From assembly GCA_000597885.1 (NCBI GenBank), contig CP004371.1, positions 1,054,001 to 1,118,000 on the forward strand: a stretch of 64,000 nucleotides of DNA. The letters run 5' to 3'. Shown here piece by piece: positions 12,809-30,684 of the stretch (position 1 is the first letter of the stretch; each line of letters opens with the position of its first letter). Both the position numbers and the translations under genes were made by a program. This stretch comes from Flammeovirgaceae bacterium 311 (GTDB taxonomy: Bacteria > Bacteroidota > Bacteroidia > Cytophagales > Cyclobacteriaceae). The notes beneath the pieces are model-generated. The model was not told where the DNA came from and ran no database searches. It saw nothing but the letters and a program-made list of their open reading frames with translations.

Positions 12809-12826
12809 TTAGTATATTTTTATTTT

Positions 12827-13900: not shown

Positions 13901-13937
13901 ATTGTTTATTTTCAATTATTCAGCCAATTTAATGGAG

Positions 13938-14411: not shown

Positions 14412-14440
14412 CTTAATGGCTAAACGGTTTTTTCAATAAT

Positions 14441-14564: not shown

Positions 14565-14578
14565 ACAGACTTTTATAT

Positions 14579-15036: not shown

Positions 15037-15084
15037 AATTTAATGCTTTCGTATCTATACTAATATAGCCCTTTTTTGGTTTGT

Positions 15085-15210
15085 CACCAACGTCCATTGA
15101 ATAAAGCAGGCGACCATTCACTGACCTTGGCTGTGCCCACGCAAAGCTTGCTGCCTGCACTGTCAATGACTGAAAGATAGCGGGGCGGTTGCTTTATTCT
15201 GTTGTTGGGC
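15085..15210 (-). repeat. attC site 14
   Basis: Left core CACCAAC, right core GTTGGGC. Left interior GGCGACC, right interior GGGCGG. Confidence 0.92.
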
Positions 15211-15636: not shown

Positions 15637-15761
15637 GCCCAACGTCCATTGAATAAAGCAGATGCCCTTCACCGGCCTCTGCTGAAAGTACGAAATGCTA
15701 ACGGCCTGCACAAGCGATGGCGGAATGCTGTTGGGGCATTTGCTTTATTCTGTTGTTACCT
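15637..15761 (-). repeat. attC site 15
   Basis: Left core GCCCAAC, right core GTTACCT. Inner arms TGCCC and GGGCA pair. Confidence 0.93.
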
Positions 15762-15841
15762 GCTGTTTATTATATTAATAAATAAGGATTGTAAATTGAT
15801 GAAAAACTAATTAAGCATTGATAAAATTCACAATCAAATTG

Positions 15842-16318
15842 TCATTCCTGAAATTGTAGTTTAGTCATGTTAATCATAGTTTCTATGTCGTCCACCAGGT
15901 TAGGGTAGTAGAATGGTTCCTGGCCTTTTTCGATTTTGAAGGATTTTGTCTTACCTAATATCTTAAACTGAAGATAGTATCCACCTTGGTCATAACAGTC
16001 CGGACAACCAAATTCATATCTTTGGTCCATCAACATTATCAGAGGAATATTTAATTTGTAATCATTGTAGCTTGCTGCACCATTTTTTTTTGAAACTTCT
16101 CCATTTCTTATTGTGATTAGGATTGCATCAGAATTTGACCAATATGAGGTAGTGTCTTTATAAATTTGGGTAGCTGTTACTTTATACATAGTCCCGCAAT
16201 TGTTAAAACACTCTCCAGCAAACCATCCATAAATCATCAATTCAGGCTTCGGTCTAATTATTATCAAGCTTAGTATGAGAACCACTAAAGTGAATATCAT
16301 TATTAGAAGGCGCTTCAT
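15842..16318 (-). CDS. Cassette gene: membrane-anchored extracytoplasmic protein
   Basis: The product has 158 residues. An N-terminal anchor (MKRLLIMIFTLVVLILSLII) is followed by a soluble domain with two cysteine pairs (CFNNC near residue 37 and CPDC near 108), which could form disulfides or bind metal. The ATG is 24 bp from the cassette boundary. The family is unknown. Confidence 0.76.
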   Translation of the reverse strand: MKRLLIMIFTLVVLILSLIIIRPKPELMIYGWFAGECFNNCGTMYKVTATQIYKDTTSYWSNSDAILITIRNGEVSKKNGAASYNDYKLNIPLIMLMDQRYEFGCPDCYDQGGYYLQFKILGKTKSFKIEKGQEPFYYPNLVDDIETMINMTKLQFQE

Positions 16319-16335
16319 GTTGTTCTAGAAATAGC

Positions 16336-16460
16336 AGGTAACGTCCATTGAATAGAGCAGGCGACCTTCACCGGCCTTTGCCGATCGTACGCAAAGGTAG
16401 ACAATAGCATTGTCAATGGCTGAATGCGCTGGGGGAGCTTGCTTTATTCTGTTGTTACTT
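16336..16460 (-). repeat. attC site 16
   Basis: Left core AGGTAAC, right core GTTACTT. The left arm reads GAATAGAGCA. The interior is nearly the same as in the sites at 13777 and 25356. Confidence 0.92.
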
Positions 16461-16476
16461 GCTGCTTATTATTTAT

Positions 16477-17037
16477 TTATTGGTAGTACCAGCTGTCCTT
16501 CAATGGTTTTAGCCCCTTTCTATTATCAGAGTTTATGGTGCTGTATAGTACTCCGTGTCTAACATCAAGAAATCCGTCCAGGCCGTAGTATACCCCTTCT
16601 TTGCTCGCAACAATCGAATACGCACCTACTTTTTGTCTTAGTTCTAAAAGCCTTTTTTGATTCTGGCTACTCAATTTATTTTGCTTGTCAATTATTTCTT
16701 CTCTACCAATCCATACTTCTGCGGAATCCCTCGATACCAGGCTATTTATTTCCTCTAGGTCAGTTTGATTAGAGTGAAGATATATCAGGTAAGAACTTTT
16801 AATAATCAGAGGTTCTACAAAGGTCAAGATTAGATATGCACCAATACATATTAAGGTCCAGGCAGATTTATTTACTACCGTCCTTTTGCCAAATAGAATA
16901 GAGAGATAGAATATCCCTGATACTAGCAGTCCGCCTACTAGTATTCCAGTGTAGGTAAAGGGTGCTCTGGCAAAAAATAGAAAACTCAAGAAAATCAGCA
17001 CAATTCCTATTATCAGTCCTGCCTCTCTAATTTTCAT
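16477..17037 (-). CDS. Cassette gene: multi-pass membrane protein
   Basis: The product has 186 residues. I chose ATG 17037 (MKIREAGLIIGIVLIFLSFL); the open frame reaches further up only because it runs through the attC. About four hydrophobic helices lie in the N-terminal half, followed by a soluble region with SRDSAEVWIGREEI and a short beta-rich end. The family is unknown. Confidence 0.76.
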   Translation of the reverse strand: MKIREAGLIIGIVLIFLSFLFFARAPFTYTGILVGGLLVSGIFYLSILFGKRTVVNKSAWTLICIGAYLILTFVEPLIIKSSYLIYLHSNQTDLEEINSLVSRDSAEVWIGREEIIDKQNKLSSQNQKRLLELRQKVGAYSIVASKEGVYYGLDGFLDVRHGVLYSTINSDNRKGLKPLKDSWYYQ

Positions 17038-17055
17038 TGTCGTTGTTTTTGTTGC

Positions 17056-17180
17056 AAGTAACGTCCATTGAATAAAGCAGATGCCCTTCACTGCCTTTTG
17101 CTGAAAGTACGCAAAAATTGCTTCCTGCATTGTCAATGGCTGAAAGCTCTTGGGGCATTTGCTTTATTCTGTTGTTAGCT
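17056..17180 (-). repeat. attC site 17
   Basis: Left core AAGTAAC, right core GTTAGCT. Inner arms TGCCC and GGGCA pair. Confidence 0.93.
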
Positions 17181-17196
17181 TTAGTTTATTATTATT

Positions 17197-17754
17197 TTAT
17201 TTTGGAGCATTAACGTTAAATCTCACCACTTCTTTTTTTGATAGATTTATTATTGCCTGAAAGTAGCAGTCTCCACCGCCCATAATTCTAAAGAGCTTAG
17301 TTTTCCAATCATCAGGTCCTGGCAAGGAACAGTAGGCATTCACATATAACAACTTTTCACCTTCAGAATTTATAACAGGCACATACTGTCGGGTATATTT
17401 AGCCTGATTTTCTATGATGAAATTTTCTAATTGAAAATCCTGGTCAGGATTCTCTGCTACTGTCTGATAATATTCTTCTGTTCGATTTTGATTGTATTTA
17501 TCGATCTGCTTGGATATCAAAACTTCAGTATCAGCGATCTCCTCTTTTGATAATTCTGCTGGTCGGACATCCTTTGGGAACATCCATGATCTGGCAGTGT
17601 CGTACTTTAATACAACATAATCCAGTGAGTCAATGATTGCTGAAGGCTCTTCAATGACTTCTTGTTCTGCCTTCACTATAGGCATATTTGTTTCAGTCCC
17701 AGTGTTGCAGCTAAGGAGTCCAAGTAAAGCTATGATAATGAGCTGGACCTTCAT
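17197..17754 (-). CDS. Cassette gene: putative lipoprotein
   Basis: The product has 185 residues from ATG 17754, with a lipoprotein signal (MKVQLIIIALLGLLSCNTGT, Cys at 16). The mature part is acidic with a helical middle (ELSKEEIADTEVLISKQIDK). The start is 13 bp from the cassette boundary. The family is unknown; it was probably exported to the periplasmic or outer-membrane face. Confidence 0.78.
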   Translation of the reverse strand: MKVQLIIIALLGLLSCNTGTETNMPIVKAEQEVIEEPSAIIDSLDYVVLKYDTARSWMFPKDVRPAELSKEEIADTEVLISKQIDKYNQNRTEEYYQTVAENPDQDFQLENFIIENQAKYTRQYVPVINSEGEKLLYVNAYCSLPGPDDWKTKLFRIMGGGDCYFQAIINLSKKEVVRFNVNAPK

Positions 17755-17762
17755 TTGATTAA

Positions 17763-17888
17763 AGCTAACGTCCATTGAATAAAGCAGACACCCATTCACT
17801 GACCATTGCTGAAAGGACGCAAAATTTGCTTTCTGCATTATCAATGGCTGAATACTGGTGGGGTGATTGCTTTATTCTGTTGTTAGGC
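17763..17888 (-). repeat. attC site 18
   Basis: Left core AGCTAAC, right core GTTAGGC. Inner arms CACCC and GGGTG pair, an arm class seen only here. Confidence 0.92.
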
Positions 17889-17906
17889 ACTGGCTTTTAT
17901 TTTTCT

Positions 17907-18581
17907 TTATTCATTTATTATTACTGACACTCCCATTCCATGAATAGAAAATGGAGGATAATCACTCAAGTCCGAATTGGGAAGGTACTGTCCATAATAT
18001 TCTTTTTCCAGTAAATGAAATTTCTCTATTCCATATCTCCTTGTGCTCTTATTGAATTGATTCAAGAAGGCACCGACTTTTTTCTCTAACCATGAATCCA
18101 ATAGAAACTCATTCAGCTGTTTATAACTGATGCTTTTTTCCCCGAACTCATTTTCATAGCTCCTTGAGAGCTCTGTTGTCATGTCCTTGTAGAAAACTGG
18201 AGACTCAAAATAAAGATAATCGAGCTTATCTAAATTAAAATCATGTTCAATTAGTGGTAAGCTTTCATTTATCTTGTCCAATGCCTTTGAAAATAAAATA
18301 GGATTACGGTGAAATATCCTGAGCTGGACTGAGCTGTCTCTCACATGTTCTGTTATCCCAATTCTAAAGTCTAGAGTGTCTTTATCGGCAATCCAGCAAT
18401 ATGTAAATGACTTTGAGTAGAAGCCAACTTCGAATGACTTTTCTAGTTTATTTTCAATCTTAACTAATGCTGTGTCTATCGGACTTTTTCCACTATCAGA
18501 CGAAATGATGTCTTCCCTTTGACTTGAATTATTGCAAGACAATAATGCCAGAGCTAATATTGATAGAATTATCGTTTTCAT
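17907..18581 (-). CDS. Cassette gene: putative lipoprotein
   Basis: The product has 224 residues with a lipoprotein signal (MKTIILSILALALLSCNNSS, Cys at 16) followed by a polar linker and a mixed alpha/beta domain rich in aromatic residues. Its leader end is the divergent attC at 18594. The family is unknown. Confidence 0.8.
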   Translation of the reverse strand: MKTIILSILALALLSCNNSSQREDIISSDSGKSPIDTALVKIENKLEKSFEVGFYSKSFTYCWIADKDTLDFRIGITEHVRDSSVQLRIFHRNPILFSKALDKINESLPLIEHDFNLDKLDYLYFESPVFYKDMTTELSRSYENEFGEKSISYKQLNEFLLDSWLEKKVGAFLNQFNKSTRRYGIEKFHLLEKEYYGQYLPNSDLSDYPPFSIHGMGVSVIINE

Positions 18582-18593
18582 TTTTTAGCTTGT

Positions 18594-18715
18594 GCCTAAC
18601 GGGCGCGGCACCTAGCAGGCGCCACAGCTGTAGTTGGTTTATGGCAGTTAAGGTAAGTGTTTTGCAGGAAGCTAACAAGAGGCAGCTGGGCGCTTGCTTG
18701 GTGCTTGTGTTAGGC
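18594..18715 (-). repeat. attC site 19, divergent type
   Basis: The core pair CCTAAC and GTTAGGC is conserved, but the arms are GGCACC (left) and GGTGC (right) with AGCAGGCGCC and GGCGCTTGCT inside, not GAATAAAGCA and TGCTTTATTC. The flanking cassettes still show matched private cores. This looks like a cassette end from another attC lineage. Confidence 0.85.
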
Positions 18716-19041
18716 TTTGGATTATTTATTTATCAGCGTCCATCCTGCGCCCAGTGGTCAATATTTTAAAGGTCAACCTGCGCCACGCTCTTATTATTCC
18801 TGCGCAGAAACTGGCTCACAAGCAGCAGCCATTACTGCCTGGCACCCGTCCGAACTGGTTCGTTAACCCAGCAAGCCCTTCTTGGCCCAGCATCAAGTTA
18901 AACGTCCAGCTTTTCCGGCTCTACTTTCCAGTCAACCTGCACCCAGCTTGTCCAGCCAAGGGCTTACTTTATTTTTGATAGAGCAAGGGACTGCTGCTAT
19001 ATGCCACTAACTGCTGTTGGCCACGCCAAACGATGCCTTAA
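18716..19041. other. Cassette without a convincing gene (ORF-less 4)
   Basis: Bounded by GTTAGGCTT (18709) and its inverse (ends 19048), and carrying the divergent attC. It shares GCTTTTCCGGCTCTACTTTC and TTGTCCAGCCAAGG with the cassette at 15.4 kb. No supported gene. Confidence 0.6.
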
Positions 19042-19166
19042 GCCTAACGTCCGTTGAATAAAGCAGGCGACCTTCACCGGCTTTTGCTGTGCCCACGCAA
19101 AGGTAGCCTTTTGCTTTGTCAATGGCTGAATGCTGGCTGGGAGCTTGCTTTATTCTGTTGTTATTT
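19042..19166 (-). repeat. attC site 20
   Basis: Left core GCCTAAC, right core GTTATTT. Typical arms. Confidence 0.93.
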
Positions 19167-19174
19167 GCTGCCTT

Positions 19175-19618
19175 TTATATTTCAAACCATACAATAAGGC
19201 GTATCTGCTTATCGTCCAGTTTTTTTACATTCTTTAATTTCTCAATAAGTTCGATAACAGCCAACCATTCACTTTGATGGCTATTTAATATTGAATCATT
19301 CTTCTTTATTTCATCATAGTAAATTGTGGTTAGGCCAAATACCTCTCCTGATTCAATATACTTTTGAATGCTTTCAATCTCTCGTCTGACAAGGTCCGAT
19401 GGATTCAGTGGAATGCCCCTATCTTTTGCAATAGAACTTATTTGATAATCTCCTCTTATAATTCTTTTCGAATAACCAAATAGCTTTTCTGTCACTTCAT
19501 CAATTTGGAGCATCATAGAGGAAATACTCATCCAACATAGCCAGGAGTGTTCTTCATCTCGTTCCTCTTGTGAAGTGTAGTTGGAAAATTCTATCCAACC
19601 TTCTGTTTCCATTGGCAT
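19175..19618 (-). CDS. Cassette gene: unknown soluble helical protein
   Basis: The product has 147 residues from ATG 19618 (MPMETEGWIEFSNYTSQEER); upstream frame belongs to the attC. Largely helical and charged (REIESIQKYIESGE, VIELIEKLKNVKKLDDKQ), with no signal. The stop codon is within 10 bp of the attC core. The family is unknown. Confidence 0.75.
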   Translation of the reverse strand: MPMETEGWIEFSNYTSQEERDEEHSWLCWMSISSMMLQIDEVTEKLFGYSKRIIRGDYQISSIAKDRGIPLNPSDLVRREIESIQKYIESGEVFGLTTIYYDEIKKNDSILNSHQSEWLAVIELIEKLKNVKKLDDKQIRLIVWFEI

Positions 19619-19639
19619 TGAAGTGTCCTTTTTGGTTGC

Positions 19640-19764
19640 AAATAACGTCCATTGAATAATGCAGGGGCTGCTCACCGCCGTTTGATGATTGTACGCAAAG
19701 GTAGCTTTCTGCATTGTCAATGGCTGAAAGCGCTATGGGCATTTGCTTTATTCTGTTGTTGTGC
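19640..19764 (-). repeat. attC site 21, chimeric interior
   Basis: Left core AAATAAC, right core GTTGTGC. The left interior (GGGGCTGCTCACC) belongs to the class that normally ends in CAGCCC, but the right interior is GGGCAT. The inner stem is therefore mispaired. The left arm is GAATAATGCA. Confidence 0.9.
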
Positions 19765-19805
19765 TGCGTTTATTTTATTCTTTTTCTCAAGGCTTTTGAA
19801 TTAGC

Positions 19806-20279
19806 TTAACCCAAGCTTACAACATTCATCTCGTGGTCAAGTAACAACATTCGAAATGATATCCATTTGCTAAAATGGTCAACAAGGAAATCATATTTAA
19901 CGAAATAGACATCGACTTTTTGATTTTGGCTAACTGCTTCATCAAACTTCTCCTTTGAGAGCTCTATGTACTTTATTTTTTTCTTATTCAAAAGCTTAAT
20001 GAAGCGTCTGTAATCATTTCCATAAGCAGGGAACTGGTAACTATCAGTTTTGAGAGTATCATCTACATAATTATATACTGTAGTGTCCCATGGAAATGCA
20101 TTGAACCCATGTTCTTCAGCAGCTTGCACCTCTTTCACAAACCTCTTATGCAATTCCTTTGGCGTCAAGACTTCAATTATAATTGATGCATCTTCTATTG
20201 AAGTAGGTTGTCCCTGAGCATAAGTGTTTGAAAGACTTAATAGTATGGTTAGAACACAAACATATATATATCTATTCAT
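19806..20279 (-). CDS. Cassette gene: secreted protein
   Basis: The product has 157 residues from ATG 20279, with a cleavable signal (MNRYIYVCVLTILLSLSNTYA then QGQ). An in-frame ATG at 20297 is an alternative start. The mature part has an alpha-helical segment (PKELHKRFVKEVQAAEEHG) and a long C-terminal strand-rich region. The family is unknown. Confidence 0.76.
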   Translation of the reverse strand: MNRYIYVCVLTILLSLSNTYAQGQPTSIEDASIIIEVLTPKELHKRFVKEVQAAEEHGFNAFPWDTTVYNYVDDTLKTDSYQFPAYGNDYRRFIKLLNKKKIKYIELSKEKFDEAVSQNQKVDVYFVKYDFLVDHFSKWISFRMLLLDHEMNVVSLG

Positions 20280-20348
20280 TACTTGGATGATCTTCATTGA
20301 AGCTAAACAATTCAAGTGGCGGTTACTAATGACAGCGATTTTAATGCA

Positions 20349-20475
20349 GCACAACGTCCATTGAATAAAGCAGGCGACCATTCACCAGCCCTTGCTGAGC
20401 GTACGCAAAGATAGCTGCCTGCATTGTCAATGGCTGAATGGCAGCTGGGGAGCTTGCTTTATTCTGTTGTTGGCA
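20349..20475 (-). repeat. attC site 22
   Basis: Left core GCACAAC, right core GTTGGCA. Typical arms. Confidence 0.93.
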
Positions 20476-20490
20476 ACAGCTCATTTTTTA

Positions 20491-21024
20491 TTATTTGAAC
20501 AAGTCCGCCTTACCTACATACTCGCTTTTTACCTTATCTTCTTTGAACGTATAAATGTAAACAGTAGGCTCGAAAATCATAGGAGGTTGATTAGGACTAT
20601 TCTTACTTTGATGCTGTAGGGGATGGATATAACTGAATTTAGTTCTATTGGGACCCGTGCAAATATTCTTGTCATGTGAAGCACCAAAGACAAAAATGTT
20701 ATAGTTCTTGTAAAGCATATAACCTAGCAACTTAACTTTATTAGCCTGTACAATTCTATTCATGCTGAATGTACTTATGGATGCTAGCCTTACCTCACTT
20801 TCATCGTCTGAGCTATTTATAACCATTATGACAGGATTATCTTTTGGCTCATTAACCATGTATTGCTCCTCAGCATTTAAGAACATAATAATCAGCTTTG
20901 TCAATTGAGGGTTGCAGGCTGAAACCTCAACTACACTGTCAGTATCAGTGTCACTACAAGATGTTATTGTGATAGAACAAAAGGTTGCTACTGCAATAAT
21001 AAAGCGTAGTATTGAATGCCTCAT
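20491..21024 (-). CDS. Cassette gene: putative lipoprotein
   Basis: The product has 177 residues with a lipoprotein signal (LRFIIAVATFCSITITSCSD, lipobox TSC) and an acidic linker DTDTDS. The mature part is mixed alpha/beta and ends EYVGKADLFK. IS1182 copy 4 interrupts the attC just upstream of its leader. The family is unknown. Confidence 0.78.
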   Translation of the reverse strand: MRHSILRFIIAVATFCSITITSCSDTDTDSVVEVSACNPQLTKLIIMFLNAEEQYMVNEPKDNPVIMVINSSDDESEVRLASISTFSMNRIVQANKVKLLGYMLYKNYNIFVFGASHDKNICTGPNRTKFSYIHPLQHQSKNSPNQPPMIFEPTVYIYTFKEDKVKSEYVGKADLFK

Positions 21025-21080
21025 TTTACTGATATGATAGATATAAATTCTTAAGCCTCATAACGGTACGATTGTGTTGT

Positions 21081-21089
21081 TGCCAACGT
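21081..21089 (-). repeat. attC site 23, R' fragment left of IS1182 copy 4
   Basis: TGCCAAC plus GT, then the IS. The matching private core GTTGGCA is at 20469. Confidence 0.85.
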
Positions 21090-22811
21090 CAGAGTGTGCA
21101 AAAACTCTTCTCTCTTGAAAAAAGGGGCTTTTGCTTCCTATTAGACCCATTTTCAGCCACTCCTAGCGCAGCTTCATAAGTTGCCTATTATCCGCTCCAA
21201 AAAGTAGAAGTTAGCTAAAAAGCATCAGGTAAAGCGCTGTAAGTGAAGACAAAGCAGCCACTGGCCACTTGGTGTAGCTTTTCAGTAGTTTGAGCAGCTT
21301 AGGCACCGAGAGGATGGACACAGCTCTCCTAAGGTTGTAGCAGGTAAAGATAAGCCCCAGCTCTCCGTCCACTTTTTTCAGTCCCTTCATCAGCGTATAG
21401 CTGTAGCCCCATGCTCTTTTGATGGTACCAAAAGGATGCTCTACAATAGCTTGTCTTTTACGATAAACTTCTTTTTGGCGCATTACCCTCTGGTTGTTGC
21501 TTTTGATCACTCCAGCATGCTCGGAGCGTTCTATTAGTCTTCCTGCCTTATTTATGGTGCATAGCGCCTTGGCTGCACAGCAAAGGCAGGCTTTGGTCTT
21601 GTAATGCTTGACCATATAAGGAGAAGCATTTTTCTTTTCCAAGCTTACCTTATGCTTCTCATACCAGGACCCATTGCTAGAAAGCACTTCCCCTTTAGGA
21701 CAGATATAATGGTCTTTCTTTTCATCATAATGGAACTGCTCCAGATAATAAGCAGCAGTTGGCACAGGATCTCTGGCAGGTTCTTTATACGCCACTATGG
21801 TGATGATGCCATTGTCCAGGCACTCACTTAGCTGTTCTCCGCTATGATAGGCTTTGTCAGCCAGTACAGTGATTCTTTTCTTTCCTAGTGCTTGTTTAGC
21901 TGCAAGAGCTGTAGGAGCTAGTGCTTTAGAATCGTTCTTGTTGAGGGCCTGGTAGTGGATGATTAGGCAGTGTTTGCTATCGACTGCTGCCTGGCTGTTG
22001 TAGCTTACCTCCACTACATTATGGTGCTGGATTAGGGCTCTGCTTTCTTTATCTGAAGTAGATACCTGTCCGTCATCACTTTGCGCTACCTCTTTTTCCA
22101 TCTGCTCGTACTTGAGCTTTCGCTTCTCCAGGTGCTTAAGAGCCACTTCGATGTCAGCCCTGGAGCCTTTGACATCATGGGCTTCCTTTTGATCTTCCTC
22201 TTCCAACAGATCCAAGTAATCATCTATCTTTTCTTGTATGTAGCTAAGCTGGCGCTCTATCTTCTTTTGGTTGTAGTTGTTCTTTCTGGAATTCACTGCT
22301 CTGATCTTTGTGCCATCTATGGCTACATATTTGCCCTTAAGCAGGTGAGCATCATTAAGAAAAGCTACAAAGGCCTTGAAGACCTGCTTGAGCTGCTGGG
22401 GATGCTCTTTCCTGAAGTCAGCGATGGTATGATAGGCAGGACAGAGCCCCTGTAGCAGCCACTGCACTTCAAGATTCCTTCTGCATTCTGTCTCCAGCTT
22501 TCTGCTTGATCTGATCCTGTTGTAGTAGCCATACAGGTAGAGCTTCAAAAGATGAGCAGGATCAAAAGAGGGTCTGCCCGTAGCTTTGGGCTCCACTCCC
22601 TTGAAACCCATCTCCAAAAGGGGCAGTGCATCTACAAAAGCATCAATGACCCTAACTGGATTATCAGCTGATATGGATGCCTCCAGACTAGTTGAAAAAG
22701 TCTGATTACGATCTCTTCCCGTCAGATGGTGCATCCCTTAATTTAGCTAAACCTGTTGTTAAACTGAAGAAAATTCAACAGTTTTAACAGCGGTGCTTTT
22801 CGCACAGACTG
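21090..22811 (-). mobile_element. IS1182-family insertion sequence, copy 4 (inverted), inside an attC
   Basis: 1722 bp, opposite orientation to the other copies but in the same attC position, with ACGT duplicated at 21086-21089 and 22812-22815. ACGT is its own complement, which explains why both orientations occur. Confidence 0.93.
21211..22734 (-). CDS. IS1182-family transposase, copy 4
   Basis: 507 residues, same sequence as the copy at 1837-3360. Intact and on the minus strand. Confidence 0.95.
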   Translation of the reverse strand: MHHLTGRDRNQTFSTSLEASISADNPVRVIDAFVDALPLLEMGFKGVEPKATGRPSFDPAHLLKLYLYGYYNRIRSSRKLETECRRNLEVQWLLQGLCPAYHTIADFRKEHPQQLKQVFKAFVAFLNDAHLLKGKYVAIDGTKIRAVNSRKNNYNQKKIERQLSYIQEKIDDYLDLLEEEDQKEAHDVKGSRADIEVALKHLEKRKLKYEQMEKEVAQSDDGQVSTSDKESRALIQHHNVVEVSYNSQAAVDSKHCLIIHYQALNKNDSKALAPTALAAKQALGKKRITVLADKAYHSGEQLSECLDNGIITIVAYKEPARDPVPTAAYYLEQFHYDEKKDHYICPKGEVLSSNGSWYEKHKVSLEKKNASPYMVKHYKTKACLCCAAKALCTINKAGRLIERSEHAGVIKSNNQRVMRQKEVYRKRQAIVEHPFGTIKRAWGYSYTLMKGLKKVDGELGLIFTCYNLRRAVSILSVPKLLKLLKSYTKWPVAALSSLTALYLMLFS

Positions 22812-22931
22812 ACGTCCATTGAATAAAGCAGATGCCCTGCACTGCCCTTTGCCGAATGTACGCAAAAGTTGCTTTCCGCATTGTCAATGGCTGAATGGGC
22901 TGGGGGCATTTGCTTTATTCTGTTGTTGGCA
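22812..22931 (-). repeat. attC site 23, main part right of IS1182 copy 4
   Basis: Inner arms TGCCC and GGGCA pair. Ends in core GTTGGCA. Confidence 0.9.
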
Positions 22932-22946
22932 GTAGTATATTTTTAT

Positions 22947-23321
22947 TTATGTCCCTGTTACTTGTCCAGTTAATAGTAAAAGGAAAAAACACCCGATACT
23001 GCTTAATGGAGACAATAGAATTAACATTAAGCTTCCGATAAGTCTTCTTTTTGATGGATCTTCCACCTTTTTGCCAAAATATATTAAGGCTGGTCCTAAT
23101 AGCCATAAAGGGCTTGAAAATAATAAAGCATTACCAACTGGAGTAATCTCCGTCCATAAAGCCGATGTTATGAACCCTATTATTAACAACAATATAATCA
23201 GTGTTGAGAGCAACAAAAACAGCTTTCCGTCATGCTTCCCCGTTATTTGTTGCATTGTCAGCCATACAATAAAGAACAGCAAAGAAGGAAGATAAATTAT
23301 TAGGAAGTCCGTTGTTTCCAT
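22947..23321 (-). CDS. Cassette gene: four-helix membrane protein
   Basis: The product has 124 residues from ATG 23321 (METTDFLIIYLPSLLFFIVW), with about four hydrophobic helices and a short basic loop (GKKVEDPSKRR) before the last one. The cassette core is GTTGGCAGTA. The family is unknown. Confidence 0.74.
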   Translation of the reverse strand: METTDFLIIYLPSLLFFIVWLTMQQITGKHDGKLFLLLSTLIILLLIIGFITSALWTEITPVGNALLFSSPLWLLGPALIYFGKKVEDPSKRRLIGSLMLILLSPLSSIGCFFLLLLTGQVTGT

Positions 23322-23335
23322 GATGATTTTATTAC

Positions 23336-23460
23336 TGCCAACGTCCATTGAATAAAGCAGCCGACCATTCACAGGGCTCAACTGAGCGTACGCAAAAATA
23401 GACTTTTGCATTGTCAATGGCTGAATGCTGCGGGGCGGTTGCTTTATTCTGTTGTTAGGT
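23336..23460 (-). repeat. attC site 24
   Basis: Left core TGCCAAC, right core GTTAGGT. Typical arms. Confidence 0.93.
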
Positions 23461-23465
23461 GCTGA

Positions 23466-23939
23466 TTATTTATTTTTTATTTTCCAGTCTTCCCAATAAT
23501 TATTGCAGATACTTTTCAGCTCATCGATCTTGATTTCATTCATTTCTTGATCGAATATTTTTATGGCTTCACAAGCTAGATAGAGATTCCCTCCGCAATA
23601 ATTATATTTTGGGTCAGCTTGATTGAATGATATCTCTACTGAACTATCTTTAACATCTGCATAGAGAATTTCCAGTTCAGCTTCAAATATTTCTCCAAGG
23701 CTATTTTTAAAATGCTTATTATTTTCTGAGGGATCAGTCCAGGGGTCAAACTCTAATCTATATATTTTGTACAGAATAAGATTAAAATACTCGTAATCAG
23801 CATTTAATCTTTCTGCTAAATACAAGCAGTCAATTTTTAAAGTCAAGATATCATTATCTCCTGTCCAACCGACTATGCTTCCGTCGTGAAACAAAGAAAA
23901 TACTTCCGCTATGTCGCCTAATGTTGCCACTGATTTCAT
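23466..23939 (-). CDS. Cassette gene: unknown acidic soluble protein
   Basis: The product has 157 residues. I prefer ATG 23939 (MKSVATLGDIAEVFSLFHDG) over the GTG at 23945 that overlaps the core. The arrangement FHDGSIVGWTGDNDILTLKI recalls small proteins of the immunity type in which an HDG-like turn precedes a strand; this is a weak resemblance. No signal. It ends DWKIKNK 6 bp from the attC. Confidence 0.74.
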   Translation of the reverse strand: MKSVATLGDIAEVFSLFHDGSIVGWTGDNDILTLKIDCLYLAERLNADYEYFNLILYKIYRLEFDPWTDPSENNKHFKNSLGEIFEAELEILYADVKDSSVEISFNQADPKYNYCGGNLYLACEAIKIFDQEMNEIKIDELKSICNNYWEDWKIKNK

Positions 23940-23943
23940 TTGC

Positions 23944-24065
23944 ACCTAACGTCCAATGAATAAAGCAGGGGCTGCTCACCGCCGCCGCTCAATGTACGTC
24001 TGGTTAATTTTTATTGTAAGATAGCGGAGAGCTCTTACAGCCCTTGTTTTATTCTGTTGTTATGG
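23944..24065 (-). repeat. attC site 25
   Basis: Left core ACCTAAC, right core GTTATGG. Inner arms GGGCTG and CAGCCC pair. The left spacer is GTCCAAT. Confidence 0.92.
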
Positions 24066-24071
24066 AACGTT

Positions 24072-24632
24072 TTATTTTATTTTTATATACTGCTTGTAGT
24101 CATTTGCAATCATCGATTCATTTTCTACGAAAGCGGGATCCATAGCTCCTACACTTTCCAAGTCCGGGGTTGACCATCTTATCACCCTGTCCTCCTTCAC
24201 ATAAAAGCGATCTTTTGTTTTAGATTTCTGTGAAGCTTTAAATTCGTCATGCCACTTGGGTCGATGATATACAGTATTTATCTTATCTACGAAGAAGAGA
24301 TTACCATTTTTAAAGTAATATTCAGAAGTTAAATCTTCGCGGTCTCCATAGAATTCAATGGTCATTTTAACTAGCTGTTCGTCTACAAAATATCTAGTCA
24401 TTTTGATCTTGCCTAGTCTGTATATTTTTGCTGCTTCACTTGAGAATGGTTCAGAACTTTCCCCTTGATTGACTTCTATTTCAGATAGCATTACTTTATT
24501 AGACTCCGATATAATGGAATTTACTTCTCGGAACCATTCCCTTATCTGATTTATATCTTTTTCTAAATTCTGCGAGTGTAGTGGTAAGATCACTGAAAAA
24601 ATTAATCCGGCTATTAAAAAAATCCTGCTCAT
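24072..24632 (-). CDS. Cassette gene: secreted protein
   Basis: The product has 186 residues with a signal peptide (MSRIFLIAGLIFSVILPLHS, then QNLEKD). The mature protein starts helical (INQIREWFREVNSIISESNK) and continues with short beta strands around EFYGDREDLTSEYYFKNGN, a pattern of beta-repeat secreted proteins. The family is unknown. Confidence 0.78.
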   Translation of the reverse strand: MSRIFLIAGLIFSVILPLHSQNLEKDINQIREWFREVNSIISESNKVMLSEIEVNQGESSEPFSSEAAKIYRLGKIKMTRYFVDEQLVKMTIEFYGDREDLTSEYYFKNGNLFFVDKINTVYHRPKWHDEFKASQKSKTKDRFYVKEDRVIRWSTPDLESVGAMDPAFVENESMIANDYKQYIKIK

Positions 24633-24651
24633 AGCTTCTTGTTTTAATGTT

Positions 24652-24778
24652 CCATAACGTCCATTGAATAAAGCAGCCGACCATTCACTGGCCTCTGCCT
24701 AAAGTTCGATAAGGTAGCACCCTGCATTGTCAATGGCAACCAAGCAAGCGGGGCGGTTGCTTTATTCTGTTGTTGGGC
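24652..24778 (-). repeat. attC site 26
   Basis: Left core CCATAAC, right core GTTGGGC. Typical arms. Confidence 0.93.
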
Positions 24779-24851
24779 ACTGTTTATTTATATTTTATCT
24801 AATTAGCACAATCAGCTATTGTCATCTCTTAAGAAACAACTTTACTACTTT

Positions 24852-25241
24852 TTATCTCAAGTAATTATTTAGAAAAGGTAACACACCAAGGCCAAGCAGT
24901 ATGATACTAACATACATTAAAAGCTTTCTGCCTTTTAGTCTCCTATCATTATTAGTGTCGGCACCCCACCTTTGGTTCAACTCCTGATAATTTTGAATAA
25001 ACTTATATCTATAATATAATACCGCCCATACAGTCAAAGTACAAGTAAGGGTTATTTCAGGTTCTAGTGAAAAAGCTTTTTTAGTGAATATCATATTTAA
25101 TATGACCAATAAGCACAACAGATTAATACCAATCACTACTGCCATTATAGCAGATGACCAAAATACAGGAACACCTTGTCTTTGCCTTTTAGAATAATAA
25201 TCAAAGCACCTATAGTAGAAGTAGTCTAAAAAGCTTATCAT
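24852..25241 (-). CDS. Cassette gene: three-helix membrane protein
   Basis: The product has 129 residues with hydrophobic helices at about 30-52, 63-79 and 108-122, and a charged loop NQRWGADTNNDRRLKGRK between the last two. It sits further from both cassette ends than most genes here (about 70 bp to the attC, about 115 bp to the boundary). The family is unknown. Confidence 0.72.
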   Translation of the reverse strand: MISFLDYFYYRCFDYYSKRQRQGVPVFWSSAIMAVVIGINLLCLLVILNMIFTKKAFSLEPEITLTCTLTVWAVLYYRYKFIQNYQELNQRWGADTNNDRRLKGRKLLMYVSIILLGLGVLPFLNNYLR

Positions 25242-25355
25242 TTATATATCATATTGTTTTAAGTCAGGCCAATTCTTTATGGTCTAAGTCAATTGCACAG
25301 CAAAATCTCAAAATTTTTCTACTGGCATTGCAGTAAGCTACTCGGTTTTAATAGT

Positions 25356-25480
25356 GCCCAACGTCCATTAAATAAAGCAGGCGACCTTCACCGGCCTTTG
25401 CTGATCGTACGCAAAGGTAGACAATAGCATTGTCAATGGCTGAATGAGCTGGGGGCGCTTGCTTTATTCTGTTGTTGGTA
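25356..25480 (-). repeat. attC site 27
   Basis: Left core GCCCAAC, right core GTTGGTA. The left arm reads AAATAAAGCA. Confidence 0.92.
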
Positions 25481-25488
25481 GCCGTATA

Positions 25489-25929
25489 TTATTTTTTTAT
25501 TTCATAGTGGATGAGACCTAAGTCCCTTAGCTTTTGCTGAAACTCCAGGTTGTCCGTCTTCACTTTTTTACTTTTTATTCCTTTTCCTATTCCATATATA
25601 AAAGGCCCAGGTCTGTTACTCCAACCAATTCCAAATGGTCTAGGATCATATCCTGCACGTCGTCCAATGATTTTTAATATTGGTTCTCTGGTATTAGGCT
25701 TTTCTATTATCAGGTCGACACATGGATATATTTTATCCTCTGCAACATATGTCTTATCAGTGATTTCAAAGACTATGTTTTCCCGTCCCTGAGTAACGGT
25801 CCGGTCGTATGTTTCCCATTCAAATTCTAGTTCATGATCATTGAAATCCTGGCCCGCATACAACTCCGCAAAGAGTATCAGTTCTCCGATTGTCTTATCC
25901 ACGAACTTTATGAATTCATCTAGAGACAT
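25489..25929 (-). CDS. Cassette gene: unknown soluble protein
   Basis: The product has 146 residues with no signal. It has a helical N-terminus (SLDEFIKFVDKTIGELILFA) and a central segment RAGYDPRPFGIGWSNRPG rich in Gly, Pro and aromatic residues. The cassette has a 10-bp perfect end match (GTTGGTAGCC and GGCTACCAAC). The family is unknown. Confidence 0.75.
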   Translation of the reverse strand: MSLDEFIKFVDKTIGELILFAELYAGQDFNDHELEFEWETYDRTVTQGRENIVFEITDKTYVAEDKIYPCVDLIIEKPNTREPILKIIGRRAGYDPRPFGIGWSNRPGPFIYGIGKGIKSKKVKTDNLEFQQKLRDLGLIHYEIKK

Positions 25930-25953
25930 AGCTTAATGCTGCGATTATATGGC

Positions 25954-26077
25954 TACCAACGTCCATTGAATAAAACAGGGGCTGCTCACCGCTGCGTCTA
26001 CATGGACGATAAGTTAGAGGTTTTGTAGTTCAGTGGCAAAGAGCTCTTACAGCCCTTGCTTTATTCTGTTGTTGGTA
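25954..26077 (-). repeat. attC site 28
   Basis: Left core TACCAAC, right core GTTGGTA. The left arm reads GAATAAAACA. Inner arms GGGCTG and CAGCCC pair. Confidence 0.92.
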
Positions 26078-26146
26078 ACAGGTTATTTTTTTCTTTTCGA
26101 GCAAATTCTTCTAGGTAACCAAAAATTGCGGAAACCGCTGGCCTCT

Positions 26147-27001
26147 CTATGTTTTATACCCATTGTTAGCAAATCGTGTTATTTTATTATCAAATCTCTC
26201 TCTTAGATAATCGAGGTCGTTTATATTTCTCAACTCAAATCCATATTTCTTTTTGGTCAATTCATTCACCAGAGTAAGGGAGTAATTGTCGACAAACCCA
26301 TTTTCAATGTAGAATGGCAAAATATTACTTGACCATGAGCGAAATTTGTTTGCATCAACTTCTTTTAATATGTCAATATTGACCTGATCCAGCAATCTTT
26401 CTGCCATATGTCTATAGCAACTTTCTTTTTTATCATCCTGGCTTTCACTGCTAAACCTAAAGATGCTGACAAATGGATTTGGAGGGTTATATTTGGTCTC
26501 ATTGTGCACCAAATGTTTATTTCCATATTTTGCCCCAACCAACCTTATGAAAGCTTGAACAAAGTTGTTAGGCGGATTTACCCCGTCTGTGGTATTTGAT
26601 TTTTGAGTATAATTCAATCCATTCGAATCGAATAAGTCCCACAATTCAAATCCATTTTCCACTTCACCATAGTTTTTCACTTCAATCAAATCCCTCATTA
26701 TCTCCATGAAATCAAAAAATATGGGTGAATGATTTTGTCTCACTTCAGAGGATTCAATATAGTTTACATCAGCACCATTCTGAACAAGAATCTTAGCAAC
26801 ATCAAAATTGTAGAATCTGATCGCTAATTTCAAAGATGAAAAGCCATCAATCCCTTTTGCAATACCAGTAACTATTGAGTTAGATAATTCAGGGAATTCA
26901 TTAAGCATTTCTTTTATTTCCGCAGAGTAATCAAACTCTTCATCCTTAATGAGTTTGAAAAATTCCCTTTCTTTAGCCTTAGTCAATATTTTGGACTTCA
27001 T
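26147..27001 (-). CDS. Cassette gene: ankyrin-repeat-containing protein
   Basis: The product has 284 residues and is the largest cassette product in the window. An ankyrin-like block is visible at about residues 50-80 (GFSSLKLAIRFYNFDVAKIL followed by VQNGADVNYIE). The remainder is helical and not recognised. Ankyrin repeats bind proteins, so a role in protein-protein interaction is a fair guess; cytoplasmic, no signal. Confidence 0.82.
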   Translation of the reverse strand: MKSKILTKAKEREFFKLIKDEEFDYSAEIKEMLNEFPELSNSIVTGIAKGIDGFSSLKLAIRFYNFDVAKILVQNGADVNYIESSEVRQNHSPIFFDFMEIMRDLIEVKNYGEVENGFELWDLFDSNGLNYTQKSNTTDGVNPPNNFVQAFIRLVGAKYGNKHLVHNETKYNPPNPFVSIFRFSSESQDDKKESCYRHMAERLLDQVNIDILKEVDANKFRSWSSNILPFYIENGFVDNYSLTLVNELTKKKYGFELRNINDLDYLRERFDNKITRFANNGYKT

Positions 27002-27130
27002 TGGACTTAATTATTTCTTCACAACAGGAAATTTCATTATTCAATATCCACCATCTATAGAAGCTTTTGATTCCTGGGTTCAGCCCCTAAATAATTATAA
27101 ATCATTGGTAGAGCTAACGATTTCACTTGT

Positions 27131-27255
27131 TACCAACGTCCATTGAATAAAGCAGATGCCCTTCGCTGCCCTTTGCTGAAAGTACGCAAAAATTGCTTTC
27201 TGCACTGTCAATGGCTGAATGCTGTTGGGGCATTTGCTTTATTCTGTTGTTGGGA
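27131..27255 (-). repeat. attC site 29
   Basis: Left core TACCAAC, right core GTTGGGA. Inner arms TGCCC and GGGCA pair. Confidence 0.93.
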
Positions 27256-27264
27256 GTAGTTTTT

Positions 27265-27849
27265 TTATATTTTCATCATCAGCAGGTAGTACAATGGTGT
27301 ATAGCCAACTGCTGCTATTAAGTAATTAATGATTGTCTGTCCTATTGATAATCCTTGTGCAGCCATGAGTCCTTTTATTAGCAGCACAAGAGACCATAAA
27401 GCTAGGAGTCCAATTGCAAGCCTTATAATGACCATTACTATAACTATAAGAGCTGGAACATCCTGAATAAAACTGCTCTCAAAATAAAAAGCAATTGTGA
27501 TGTGAGTCAGGATGAGTAATGCAGTCAGTATGAATGGTCTGTAGGCGTAAGCTAAAGCCTTGTATATATTTTTTATGGAATTATTCGCTTTGAATGCCTT
27601 ACCTATCAGCGCTACCAGCAGTCCCACGATTAGGTTTGATATAACCCCAATAAATAACCCAACAATCACAACAGTCACAATTAGTGAAAATAGATGCTCT
27701 GCATTTAACTGTAGTATGTTGTCCCTTTTTGCTGTGTAAAGAATAAAAATGCCATGAAGCATGAAGTAATAGATTATCTGTCCCCACTTTATGTCTTCAC
27801 GGAGGACTGATTCTATTTTTGATGATTGGTTGTTAATGGATATGGCCAT
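27265..27849 (-). CDS. Cassette gene: Yip1-like multi-pass membrane protein
   Basis: The product has 194 residues from ATG 27849 (MAISINNQSSKIESVLREDI). About five hydrophobic helices follow a polar N-terminus. The stretch GKAFKANNSIKNIYKALAYA before helix three resembles the loop of Yip1-domain proteins, but the match is loose. The stop lies about 10 bp from the attC core. Confidence 0.72.
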   Translation of the reverse strand: MAISINNQSSKIESVLREDIKWGQIIYYFMLHGIFILYTAKRDNILQLNAEHLFSLIVTVVIVGLFIGVISNLIVGLLVALIGKAFKANNSIKNIYKALAYAYRPFILTALLILTHITIAFYFESSFIQDVPALIVIVMVIIRLAIGLLALWSLVLLIKGLMAAQGLSIGQTIINYLIAAVGYTPLYYLLMMKI

Positions 27850-27860
27850 TTTTGAATTAC

Positions 27861-27985
27861 TCCCAACGTCCATTGAATAAAGCAGGCGCCCCGGCACCAG
27901 CGGTTGTTAAAGTACGAAAGATTCTGATTTAGTAGAACAGCTGCTACGAAGCTGTGAGGGCGATTGCTTTATTCTGTTGTTATGG
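27861..27985 (-). repeat. attC site 30
   Basis: Left core TCCCAAC, right core GTTATGG. Inner arms CGCCC and GGGCG pair. Confidence 0.93.
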
Positions 27986-27996
27986 GCAGATTATTT

Positions 27997-28515
27997 TTAT
28001 TTTTTATAGAGTTCGTACAGGGTATTGAAGATGAGTCCCTCTTTATCATGCAGGTCCCATAGGTCAGTAATTGTATATATTATTTCCGTCCTTGCCTTTG
28101 AAGGTCCGAATTGGTAGTCGGTGAGGAAATATACTTTATTTACTGGTGAGCTTTCTAGCGCTATATTTAATATTCTGTCAATGTCCGGTTTAAACTGTTC
28201 ATGAAATTTGAATCTATGTTGCTGGTTAGCTCCCCAAGAATCAGCCGGATTATCTGGGTCAATATGAGGAATGATTATATCGCCTGATTCAAAGTCCCAG
28301 TCAATTAGCTGCCCACCAAAGAATCCACCTTCTTTATCTTCTTTAAAGTCAGCATTGCCTAAATGAACAATGCTGCCGTCCTGTTTTGAGAGAAATTTAT
28401 TAAATAGTCCTCTGTGACTTTCTAATCTATTTTCTTCTATGATAGCTACATCATAGTCTTCCTGTCGTAGGTCTAGCCCAGTTGAGTTTATAGATGCTAT
28501 TTCTATAGTAGGCAT
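27997..28515 (-). CDS. Cassette gene: unknown soluble protein
   Basis: The product has 172 residues from ATG 28515 (MPTIEIASINSTGLDLRQED). Acidic, no signal, with alternating strands and a C-terminal helix (DKEGLIFNTLYELYKK). It is the second cassette from the recombinase, hence probably among the latest captured if insertion is at the recombinase end. The family is unknown. Confidence 0.75.
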   Translation of the reverse strand: MPTIEIASINSTGLDLRQEDYDVAIIEENRLESHRGLFNKFLSKQDGSIVHLGNADFKEDKEGGFFGGQLIDWDFESGDIIIPHIDPDNPADSWGANQQHRFKFHEQFKPDIDRILNIALESSPVNKVYFLTDYQFGPSKARTEIIYTITDLWDLHDKEGLIFNTLYELYKK

Positions 28516-28530
28516 GCCCTTTTTATTTGC

Positions 28531-28655
28531 CCATAACGTCCGTTGAATAAAGCAGATGCCCTTCACCGGCTTTTGATGAATGTACGAAAGGCCCTACTTC
28601 TGCACAACCAATGGCTGAACGCACGGGGGGCATTTGCTTTATTCTGTTGTTGGGG
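28531..28655 (-). repeat. attC site 31 (attC of the recombinase-proximal cassette)
   Basis: Left core CCATAAC, right core GTTGGGG. Inner arms TGCCC and GGGCA pair. Its private core GTTGGGGCC matches the bases that follow the recombinase stop codon at 29113. Confidence 0.94.
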
Positions 28656-28665
28656 CCAGTATATT

Positions 28666-29112
28666 TTATTTAATTTCCAACGTCGTCCTGCCAAACCAAC
28701 CAGGAGAAGTCACTTCCTGGGATATTTTCATTTGATGTCCACCTTGAAAATCCAGGTAAAGGTCAAAGCCCTGCGAAACAGTAAATCCTACAAATGATTT
28801 ATTTAGAACTTTATCAATAGGGTATTTTTCATTAATCGAGTCTATGAATGGATATTCAAATTCATCGGCATCTGATTCATTTTCTAAATTCATTAATGGC
28901 TCCTCGGGCCCTTCTTTTATGAATAGAACACCATCGTCAAAGAATATGCGCATCCAGATATCGAACTTCAAATAGAGGACAAATACCTCTTCAGCAATTT
29001 CTTTATTGTACAAGTACGATTGTATTCTTAGGTCAGTCAGCGTAAGTGAGAGCCTCTCATTCAATAATTCTCTGCCGTAGGTGTCGTACATTTCTAGTTT
29101 TATTGGCCCCAA
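28666..29112 (-). CDS. First cassette gene, directly behind the recombinase
   Basis: The product has 148 residues if the TTG at 29112 is used; that TTG immediately follows the recombinase TAG and is the TT(G) of the cassette boundary. An in-frame ATG at 29091 (MYDTYGRELLNERLSL) would give 141 residues. The protein is soluble and acidic (EPLMNLENESDADEFEY) with a strand-rich C-terminus (FVGFTVSQGFDLYLDF). The family is unknown. Zero spacing to the recombinase gene suggests co-transcription. Confidence 0.75.
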   Translation of the reverse strand: MGPIKLEMYDTYGRELLNERLSLTLTDLRIQSYLYNKEIAEEVFVLYLKFDIWMRIFFDDGVLFIKEGPEEPLMNLENESDADEFEYPFIDSINEKYPIDKVLNKSFVGFTVSQGFDLYLDFQGGHQMKISQEVTSPGWFGRTTLEIK

Positions 29113-29158
29113 CTAGTAGCTAATCGCGGTATCAACTATGTATTTAGTCATTATCGCG
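29105..29158 (-). other. Putative attI-like primary insertion site at the recombinase 3' end
   Basis: On the minus strand the sequence reads ATTAGCTACTAG then TTGGGGCC. The G of the stop codon TAG plus the following TT form the GTT crossover triplet of the first cassette, whose other end is GGCCCCAAC at 28649-28657. Within the coding end there are two direct repeats TWATCGCG on the plus strand (29121-29128 and 29151-29158), spaced 30 bp apart, possible recombinase arm sites. The assignment as attI is an inference. Confidence 0.65.
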
Positions 29159-30660
29159 TTTATGCGCATTTTAGCGTGAGAGGTATATAACGCCATGGGC
29201 TCTTTTAAGAAGTCTGGTTTTTGGTTTGGAAACATAGGATATTTATTGTTTAGATCCAACCTGTCCAGGGGACTCTGTATGTTCTGAACAGCCTGCTGGC
29301 TTACATGGGTATAGATTTCGGTGGTTTTGCTGCTGTTGTGGCCCAGTAAGCTCTGGATGTAACGCAAATCGGTACCTCCTTCCAGTAAATGGGTGGCGAA
29401 ACTGTGCCGTAGTGAATGCAGAGTAAATGGCTTGTCTATTTTTGCTTTGTGCAGGGCTTGCTTAAAGACACTCCTTAAGCTGGAATCGGTATATTGATCG
29501 CCCCACTGCCCCTCAAAAACCCAGTGCTGTGGCTGGTACGCCTCAAGATACGCCCTAAGAAGCTGGCAAAGCACGTTGGACAAAATCGTCATCCTGTCTT
29601 TTTTACCCTTTGCATACCTGATGCGGATCTGCTTTCTTTCCCAGTCAATATCAGTTAATTTTAAATTTATGAGCTCTCCTGCACGCAAACCGCTAGAATA
29701 AAGAAGCGAAAGCATGCACCGGTGTTTCAGATTACCCGAGGCTGATAAAACTGCACGAAGTTCCTCCTGGCTCATTACCTTTGGTAATTGCTTGTCCCGC
29801 TTTACCCGCACTAAATCCACCCCATCCAATTTTTTTCCCTGTACATGCAACATATAGAATTTGATGGCACTTACCGATTGGTTAACGGATGCCGCCTTTA
29901 CATTACCCTGTGCCATCCAGCGACTGTGATATAGGTTGATGGTATGTGACTGCAGGTCTTTAAGGGTTTGCTCCTCCGTGATACCCAGTTGCCTGATAAA
30001 CCTGCCCATTAAACTGTAATAGGTATTCAAGGTGCTGCTGCTATAGCCCTTCCCATACATGGCATCCAAAAATGGATCTGCATCAATGCTACCCCAGTCC
30101 CTGCTGCCACCTGTAATCAGCTGCTTTTGGGTGAGAAAATCAATTGGGTATAACCTCGGATCTAACCTTAAACGGGCATGGGGCTGCAACAGGCGTACCA
30201 CCTCCAGTAATGGTGTTTCCTCCTGCTGTACATACCAGCACTTTCCTCTGGTATAGTAGTGGGCGTACGGCTTCTGCTTCATCAGGTTTGCCAGCAGCTG
30301 TTGATAACGAAAGCGGATCAGCAGAATGTATTTACCTTCCAGCTCCCCCGGAATCAGCTGTACCAATGGTAAACTCGCTCCTTCAGGCATTTCTTTTTTT
30401 ACCCCTTTTACACCGGCCTGCAGGGCATAACGCATTAATGCAGAGGTGTCCAGCTTTGCTTTTCCTCTGATAATCTCCTTTAACTTCAGAAGTGGCTCTT
30501 TCTTATAATGCGTTACCAGGCATTTGTAGGTCTTGCTGAACTTAAGAAGATCCTGCTGCTGGCACAGGTAGCTGAACAGTGCTTTATCCTGCTGAAAACT
30601 TAGCCTGACAAAGGTCTTTCCGCCGTGCAGCAATGGAGATAAGTAGATGACTGGCAACAT
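29113..30660 (-). CDS. Tyrosine recombinase, probable cassette integrase of the array
   Basis: The product has 515 residues. The catalytic domain is complete: Arg326 in SSGLRAGEL, Lys in AKGKKDR (351-355), HSLRHS (His415, Arg418), LLGH (His441) and the nucleophile Tyr450 in TTEIYTHV. A SAM-like core-binding domain lies at about 194-290. The tail IQSPLDRLDL resembles IntI and related Xer-type enzymes, but the IntI-specific insertion between the Lys and His-x-x-Arg blocks is absent. Residues 1-190 hold two similar modules (15-65 and 107-158, each with a KCL/KCW turn). It reads toward the cassettes and its stop codon abuts the first one. Acting on these attC sites is inferred from position. Confidence 0.88.
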   Translation of the reverse strand: MLPVIYLSPLLHGGKTFVRLSFQQDKALFSYLCQQQDLLKFSKTYKCLVTHYKKEPLLKLKEIIRGKAKLDTSALMRYALQAGVKGVKKEMPEGASLPLVQLIPGELEGKYILLIRFRYQQLLANLMKQKPYAHYYTRGKCWYVQQEETPLLEVVRLLQPHARLRLDPRLYPIDFLTQKQLITGGSRDWGSIDADPFLDAMYGKGYSSSTLNTYYSLMGRFIRQLGITEEQTLKDLQSHTINLYHSRWMAQGNVKAASVNQSVSAIKFYMLHVQGKKLDGVDLVRVKRDKQLPKVMSQEELRAVLSASGNLKHRCMLSLLYSSGLRAGELINLKLTDIDWERKQIRIRYAKGKKDRMTILSNVLCQLLRAYLEAYQPQHWVFEGQWGDQYTDSSLRSVFKQALHKAKIDKPFTLHSLRHSFATHLLEGGTDLRYIQSLLGHNSSKTTEIYTHVSQQAVQNIQSPLDRLDLNNKYPMFPNQKPDFLKEPMALYTSHAKMRINAIMTKYIVDTAISY

Positions 30661-30676: not shown

Positions 30677-30684
30677 CAAACATA
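30677..30684 (-). promoter_or_regulatory. Bacteroidota-type -7 box for the recombinase gene
   Basis: The minus strand reads TATGTTTG, matching TAnnTTTG, 16 bp before the ATG at 30660. No clear -33 partner at the preferred distance. Confidence 0.5.

Follow-up and report, generated by a model that had tools for sequence, protein, structure and literature searches.

Integrons in which the integrase gene and the cassettes share one orientation, with attI behind the integrase, are represented by the inverted-integrase integrons of Treponema, as set out in the available portions of the two reports on them (PMC3607928, PMC4909258). An overlap between a reading frame and a crossover is likewise on record, namely in the attI1 site of class 1 integrons, where ORF-11 overlaps the crossover and its stop at the junction, TTAG, is supplied by the cassette (PMC8876359). 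The integrases themselves, IntI, are defined by an additional domain that is said to be required for them to be active (PMC2426708, citing Messier and Roy, and PMC9668308, in the portions available). The locus considered here lies in a stretch of 64,000 nucleotides (nt) of the complete 6.67 Mb chromosome of Flammeovirgaceae bacterium 311 (contig CP004371.1, positions 1,054,001 to 1,118,000; hereafter the window, numbered from its first letter), and consists of a gene for an integron integrase-like tyrosine recombinase followed by a long cassette array. The open reading frame (ORF) of this integrase ends in a TAG whose last base is also the crossover base of a putative attI. Very probably, the whole is best explained as the attI of a sedentary chromosomal integron, the integrase ORF of which has been extended through attI to attI's own TAG.

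The integrase-cassette junction

On the minus strand the junction reads ...CCGCGATTAGCTACTAG^TTGGGGCCAATAAAACTAGAAATG... (29105-29119), where ^ marks the crossover; the ORF terminates at the TAG of this junction, and 29112 is the first cassette base (Table 1). A first-pass annotation of the window had placed the insertion point inside the recombinase stop codon, as TAG^TT, and had taken the crossover G for the final base of that codon. The junction, the end of the ORF and the 10-nt private core together bear this out, and the inverse core that it had located at 28649-28657 proves to be the 9-nt core of the 10-nt R''. Two further points of that annotation are upheld, namely that a recombinase gene in the orientation of the cassettes has an attI-like insertion point at its 3' end, and that any cassette beginning with TT would keep TAG intact: the codon lies wholly on the attI side, so the integrase protein would be unchanged by cassette insertion.

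The complementarity between the start of cassette 1 and its R'' is well beyond chance. Counted from the crossover G, at least 8 contiguous complementary bases link the start to its own R'' in 23 of the 29 window cassettes, as against 8 of 812 mismatched pairs. The cassette 1 ORF has no Pfam match, and its ATG lies 21 nt beyond the integrase translation stop.

Table 1. Features of the integrase locus and cassette array in the window.
Feature	Position	Strand	Remarks
Candidate integrase promoter, TATGTTTG	30677..30684	-	Perfect TAnnTTTG; just 5' of integrase ATG
Tyrosine recombinase (integron integrase-like), 515 amino acids	29113..30660	-	Phage_integrase 4.4e-42
TATGTTTC	29229..29236	-	5 of 6 defined TAnnTTTG bases; 20 nt past Leu codon of SPLDRL
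Putative attI, about 51 nt	29113..29163	-	Over last 17 integrase codons; near-identical in Cesiribacter sp. SM1, flanks diverge
Stop codon TAG	29115-29113	-	G at 29113 is the attI crossover G; cut between 29113 and 29112
Cassette array, 29 chained cassettes	1161..29112	-	Some cassettes split by insertion sequences
Gene cassette 1, 576 bp	28537..29112	-	ORF from TTG 29112 or ATG 29091 to 28666
R'' private core of cassette 1, TGGCCCCAAC	28658-28649	-	10 nt complementary to cassette start GTTGGGGCCA
attC of cassette 1, hairpin site of about 120 nt	28535..28660	-

Conservation of the attI element in a sister species

The nearest relative in the sample is Cesiribacter sp. SM1, whose homologous integrase is 90% identical as protein and also ends at TAG^TT. 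Nucleotide identity between the two genes is 90% over codons 497-516 and 56% over codons 485-496, and after TAGTTGGGGC it drops to 27%, that of unrelated sequence. Codons 497-516 hold 1 synonymous and 3 non-synonymous changes, compared with 29 synonymous and 3 non-synonymous changes in codons 401-468, and the final codon ahead of TAG differs between the two. The pattern points to an element of about 51 nt within the coding sequence that is conserved at the DNA level, which matches the prediction for an attI overlapping a gene. The first-pass annotation had looked to related strains for a sequence constant up to TAG and changing after it, and such is the case in SM1, where 51 near-identical nt are followed by unrelated sequence.

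An integrase without the IntI additional domain

The recombinase is made up of an N-terminal region (residues 1-190), a core-binding domain (about 195-280), a catalytic domain (about 295-455) and a C-terminal extension (469-515); its catalytic motifs are conserved in the alignment, and the ORF is intact. Against the TIGR02249 integron integrase model it scores 200.5 bits, below the cut-off of 265, and the match covers positions 7-181 and 239-315 only, leaving 182-238 almost without counterpart. Compared with the solved IntI4 (2a3v), some 43 residues are absent at about 182-243, which is the IntI additional domain around patch III. In an alignment of 23 family relatives, 10 canonical IntI and 11 Xer proteins, this domain of about 40 residues is absent from all 23 family rows, present in all 10 IntI rows and found in IntI alone. 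The top single-family match of the recombinase is NF040815 (XerA_Arch), yet it remains under the XerA, XerC and XerD cut-offs (177 bits against 335 and 330 for TIGR02224/TIGR02225), and XerD and XerC-like genes are separately encoded in the genome. A branch with 100/100 support divides the family and IntI from Xer in the tree, where IntI forms its own clade (100/100), whose long branch attaches close to the family, with the position of the root within the group unsure. Judged by alignment and tree, the recombinase groups with IntI rather than Xer, while lacking the domain and falling short of the score that mark a member of IntI. Its residues 1-190 (window 30091-30660, minus strand) have no Pfam match; a structure model predicts tandem beta-beta-alpha-beta-beta-alpha units there, at residues 4-63 and 99-158.

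The distribution of this domain-less family was surveyed in 295 sampled Bacteroidia genomes, with membership set at E <=1e-45 to the core-binding and catalytic domains of the window recombinase. A family recombinase occurs in 147 of the 295 genomes, a figure to be read as the maximum for such integrons, since some homologues may be transposon recombinases; canonical IntI above the cut-off was found in 1. Many family members sit just upstream of co-oriented attI and cassettes, often with the Bacteroidetes -7 promoter motif between. One close relative of the Flavobacterium-type integrase (locus L161) lies at 5770-6813 of plasmid NZ_CP041688.1 of Chryseobacterium sp. SNU WT5, followed by co-oriented small genes, and the NCBI name of one Chryseobacterium plasmid member is 'site-specific tyrosine recombinase/integron integrase'. 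From a plasmid location of this sort, integrons of this kind may be mobile.

Distance from stop codon to crossover in relatives

Insertion points in relatives were sought with no motif presupposed, as a GTT no more than 180 nt from the integrase stop that has a 9-nt reverse complement 150-2500 nt downstream. Private-core matching of this kind was used to locate the cassettes of relatives because a covariance model built on the window attC sites detects only Cesiribacter-type attC, and misses those of Flavobacterium and Pontibacter. Thirty-one loci pass (including SM1 locus L036, to be discounted as explained below), with the crossover 0-163 nt past the integrase stop. The offsets are 0, 0, 25, 27, 35 and 35, then 67-163, the value 0 being confined to the window species and SM1. 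An offset of 25 nt is seen in genome G002 (contig 121), one of 26-27 nt in Nafulsella turpanensis, and one of 35 nt both in contig 46 of G002 and in contig 44 of Cesiribacter SM1; Flavobacterium and many others have 88-104 nt, and Pontibacter, Rufibacter and one other about 135-163 nt. Irrespective of frame, [A/T]AG precedes ^TT in 28 of the 31 loci (14 TAG, 14 AAG), and where an [A/T]AG^TT candidate is followed by at least 1200 nt, 22 of 36 loci score, compared with 2.3% of control 9-mers.

Chained cassettes, whose attC sites measure about 127 nt or 62 nt, are present in loci from Flavobacterium, Cecembia, Rufibacter and Pedobacter, and the integrase points to attI and cassettes in the window and in all mapped relatives. 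Many relatives have a palindrome whose centre lies 19-21 nt ahead of the crossover, as against 17 nt in attI1, and by this analogy the palindromes are read as putative recombinase binding sites. The strong palindromes between integrase and attI in some relatives were also considered as terminators and set aside, their position being equal to that of the attI1 palindrome.

Origin of the stop-codon overlap

Integrases of most relatives stop right after the C-terminal SPxDxL motif or no more than about 20 residues past it. The ORF runs over the stretch past SPxDxL in Cesiribacter and Nafulsella, and in the window and SM1 it runs over attI too, up to the attI TAG. In the usual state, a stop 25-163 nt before the crossover would leave space both for a cassette promoter (Pc) and for an attI with its palindrome; in the lineage shared by the window genome and SM1 the integrase ORF would have lost its earlier stop, so that it now reads through attI and ends at the TAG often present just before the crossover in the attI of the domain-less family. 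We infer that TAG was attI sequence that turned stop codon once the ORF had grown across attI. The window TAG is best read as a trinucleotide common in attI that by chance falls in frame, the prior for which is about 1 in 3, given that no earlier stop is left. The recombinase would join attI, at G^TT, to the folded attC that a circular cassette carries, each new cassette landing between the integrase and the array.

Of the competing explanations, the one that survives best, though still unlikely, is that selection placed the stop at the crossover, as a stable anchor closing the integrase frame and tied to the cassettes. The arrangement has been kept in two species that are about 85-90% identical in this gene despite the differing last codon, and for an ORF that runs through attI, only a stop ahead of the crossover can keep the protein constant. 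All other mapped relatives, however, stop at a distance, with the same [T/A]AG^TT out of frame or untranslated, and in the extension non-synonymous changes exceed synonymous ones and the peptide looks unconstrained. As a property of the system the overlap is not supported. The first-pass annotation had taken the recombinase gene for a stable anchor, a view against which insertions elsewhere relative to the stop codon would count; the relatives have just such insertions, their homologous integrases ending 25-163 nt before the crossover, and since [T/A]AG^TT is found in any frame, a selected anchor is unnecessary. Seen across these loci, the stop-codon overlap appears to be a local accident of one lineage.

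Slightly less probable again is that the C-terminal extension (about 469-515) is an artefact, the functional integrase being shorter and the attI stop without a role. Such a shorter protein would resemble the relatives that end at or near SPxDxL, and the extension is both fast-diverging, differing in sequence between the window and SM1, and predicted with a local distance difference test score (pLDDT) below 50 in the structure model; the low model confidence and the difference between species suggest that it is probably without a structural role. Yet neither the window species nor SM1 has an earlier in-frame stop, and the ribosome must reach TAG. Least credible, and very improbable, is that the boundary is a relic, cassette 1 having been fixed long ago by a recombinase that no longer inserts here: with one genome sampled per species, turnover within a species would be invisible, but SM1 carries an unrelated first cassette at the same 51-nt attI, the recombinase keeps an intact ORF and conserved catalytic motifs, and the genome holds duplicate cassette blocks and further attC clusters elsewhere.

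Some observations weigh against the favoured explanation. The stop overlap occurs in two genomes only, which leaves room for selection, and the palindrome is weak and displaced in the window (centre about -30). At SM1 locus L036 the counted 9-nt match is an internal attC match, and the true SM1 R'', TATGCCCAAC, is one base off its cassette start, so that the clean loci number 30, not 31. Homologues on Acinetobacter plasmids are annotated as TnpF or recombinase, and some family homologues, these among them, may be transposon recombinases rather than integron integrases.

For a broader scenario the chances appear evenly divided: a Bacteroidia-wide, deep-branching set of integrons would have a domain-less integrase facing a 3' attI, canonical IntI would have arisen from or beside it by gain of the domain, and in one lineage the ORF would have grown through Pc and attI to the crossover.

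Promoters and expression

The -7 box of Bacteroidetes sigma-A promoters has the consensus TAnnTTTG (PMC9723704). Among relatives, 27 of 85 loci show a perfect match on the cassette strand no more than 60 nt past SPxDxL and 2 show one on the opposite strand, whereas shuffled sequences gave a mean of 2.7 and a maximum of 7. The imperfect match TATGTTTC might, tentatively, be a remnant of the relatives' Pc at the homologous place; it is absent from SM1. No terminator-like site was found on the integrase strand between about 30.5 and 28.5 kb, and readthrough from the integrase, with co-transcription of integrase and cassettes, is plausible. The nearby translation stop could aid expression of the first cassette, by analogy with ORF-11 in the attI1 of class 1 integrons.

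The window and SM1 share 82% identity over the 400 nt 5' of the integrase start. Divergent from the integrase, a gene for a small zinc-finger-like protein with a weak DUF2116 match occupies window 30764-31153 (plus strand).

The cassette array and its insertion sequences

The array extends past the window, at least to genome position 1042770, and matches to the attC model across the genome number at least 125. The attC cores fit RYYYAAC / GTTRRRY, and the hairpins have z of about -3 in 3 of the 4 sites tested; a search of Rfam for attC or attI families gave no relevant match. TAnnTTTG occurs in 7 of the 29 attC sites on the cassette strand and in 0 on the other, and over the whole array it is found 12 times on each strand; a promoter in attC is not claimed because the attC sites are related copies and the -33 spacing is short.

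Six cassettes fall under the 8-base complementarity threshold, and 4 of these 6 start with GTCAG and have an insertion sequence exactly at the attC crossover. Such insertion sequences begin at window 22812, 11527, 9215 and 3482 (minus strand), with junctions of GGACG followed by TCAGTCTGTGC or TCAGAGTGTGC that break G^TT; at the copy at 22812 the cassette continues with TTGGCAAC on the far side. The complete copies, 9882-11405 and 21211-22734, each code for the same transposase-like protein of 507 amino acids. From these junctions it looks as though the insertion sequences target attC sites.

The cassette ends at window 1149-1303 and 6882-7036 are identical, apparently a sign of a duplicated stretch inside the array. 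Further clusters of the same attC type lie off the main array, at genome 1.18-1.26, 2.10, 5.66 and 6.26 Mb, and no homologous integrase was found beside the clusters outside the main array. Many site scores of the 5.66 Mb cluster recur in the main array, suggesting that a block was duplicated.

Significance and comparison with known integrons

The overlap is a clear example of bases that serve both as coding sequence and as recombination site, and illustrates how the cassette side may change freely without touching the integrase. It is outweighed in importance by what the comparison reveals, namely common and apparently overlooked integron-like platforms in Bacteroidia. If these are active, the IntI additional domain would be dispensable for integron recombination, many integrons would escape searches that demand this domain, and living domain-less examples would make the origin of integrons testable.

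Among described systems, the 'reverse' integrons of Treponema denticola and relatives resemble the window in having attI at the integrase 3' end, a long array and a GTT core, and by its co-orientation the window system would work like such an inverted-integrase integron. The Treponema type is described, in the available portions of its reports, with intI integrases, whereas the window recombinase is without the IntI additional domain and carries some 190 extra N-terminal residues; those same portions (PMC3607928, PMC4909258) do not report an overlap of crossover and integrase stop. The end of attI1, ...CCCTAAAACAAAG^TTAGGC after a small palindrome, resembles the Flavobacterium sequence ...TATATACAAG^TTAG. 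In class 1 integrons, however, intI1 is divergent from the cassettes, with attI1 beyond its 5' end (the control sequence), while in the window the two are co-oriented and attI is at the 3' end; and ORF-11 takes its stop from the inserted cassette, whereas the window stop is part of both attI and the integrase's own gene.

The archaeal and bacterial XerA, XerC and XerD share with the window recombinase a two-domain core without the IntI insertion. Unlike Xer, the window recombinase has the IntI-type C-terminal SPxDxL, joins IntI on the 100/100 branch and is flanked by attI and attC. For the 'integron-like' tyrosine recombinase subgroup (PMC8138268), the available portion of the report describes no Bacteroidetes platform, attI or arrays for domain-less members. 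No description of Bacteroidetes or domain-less integrons was found in the open-access literature, subscription papers and preprints being outside the search. The co-orientation of integrase and cassettes is not new, being known from Treponema, and a junction stop codon is known from ORF-11 of attI1; as far as the open-access literature shows, what is apparently new is an attI-derived stop of the integrase itself, together with the domain-less class of integrase.
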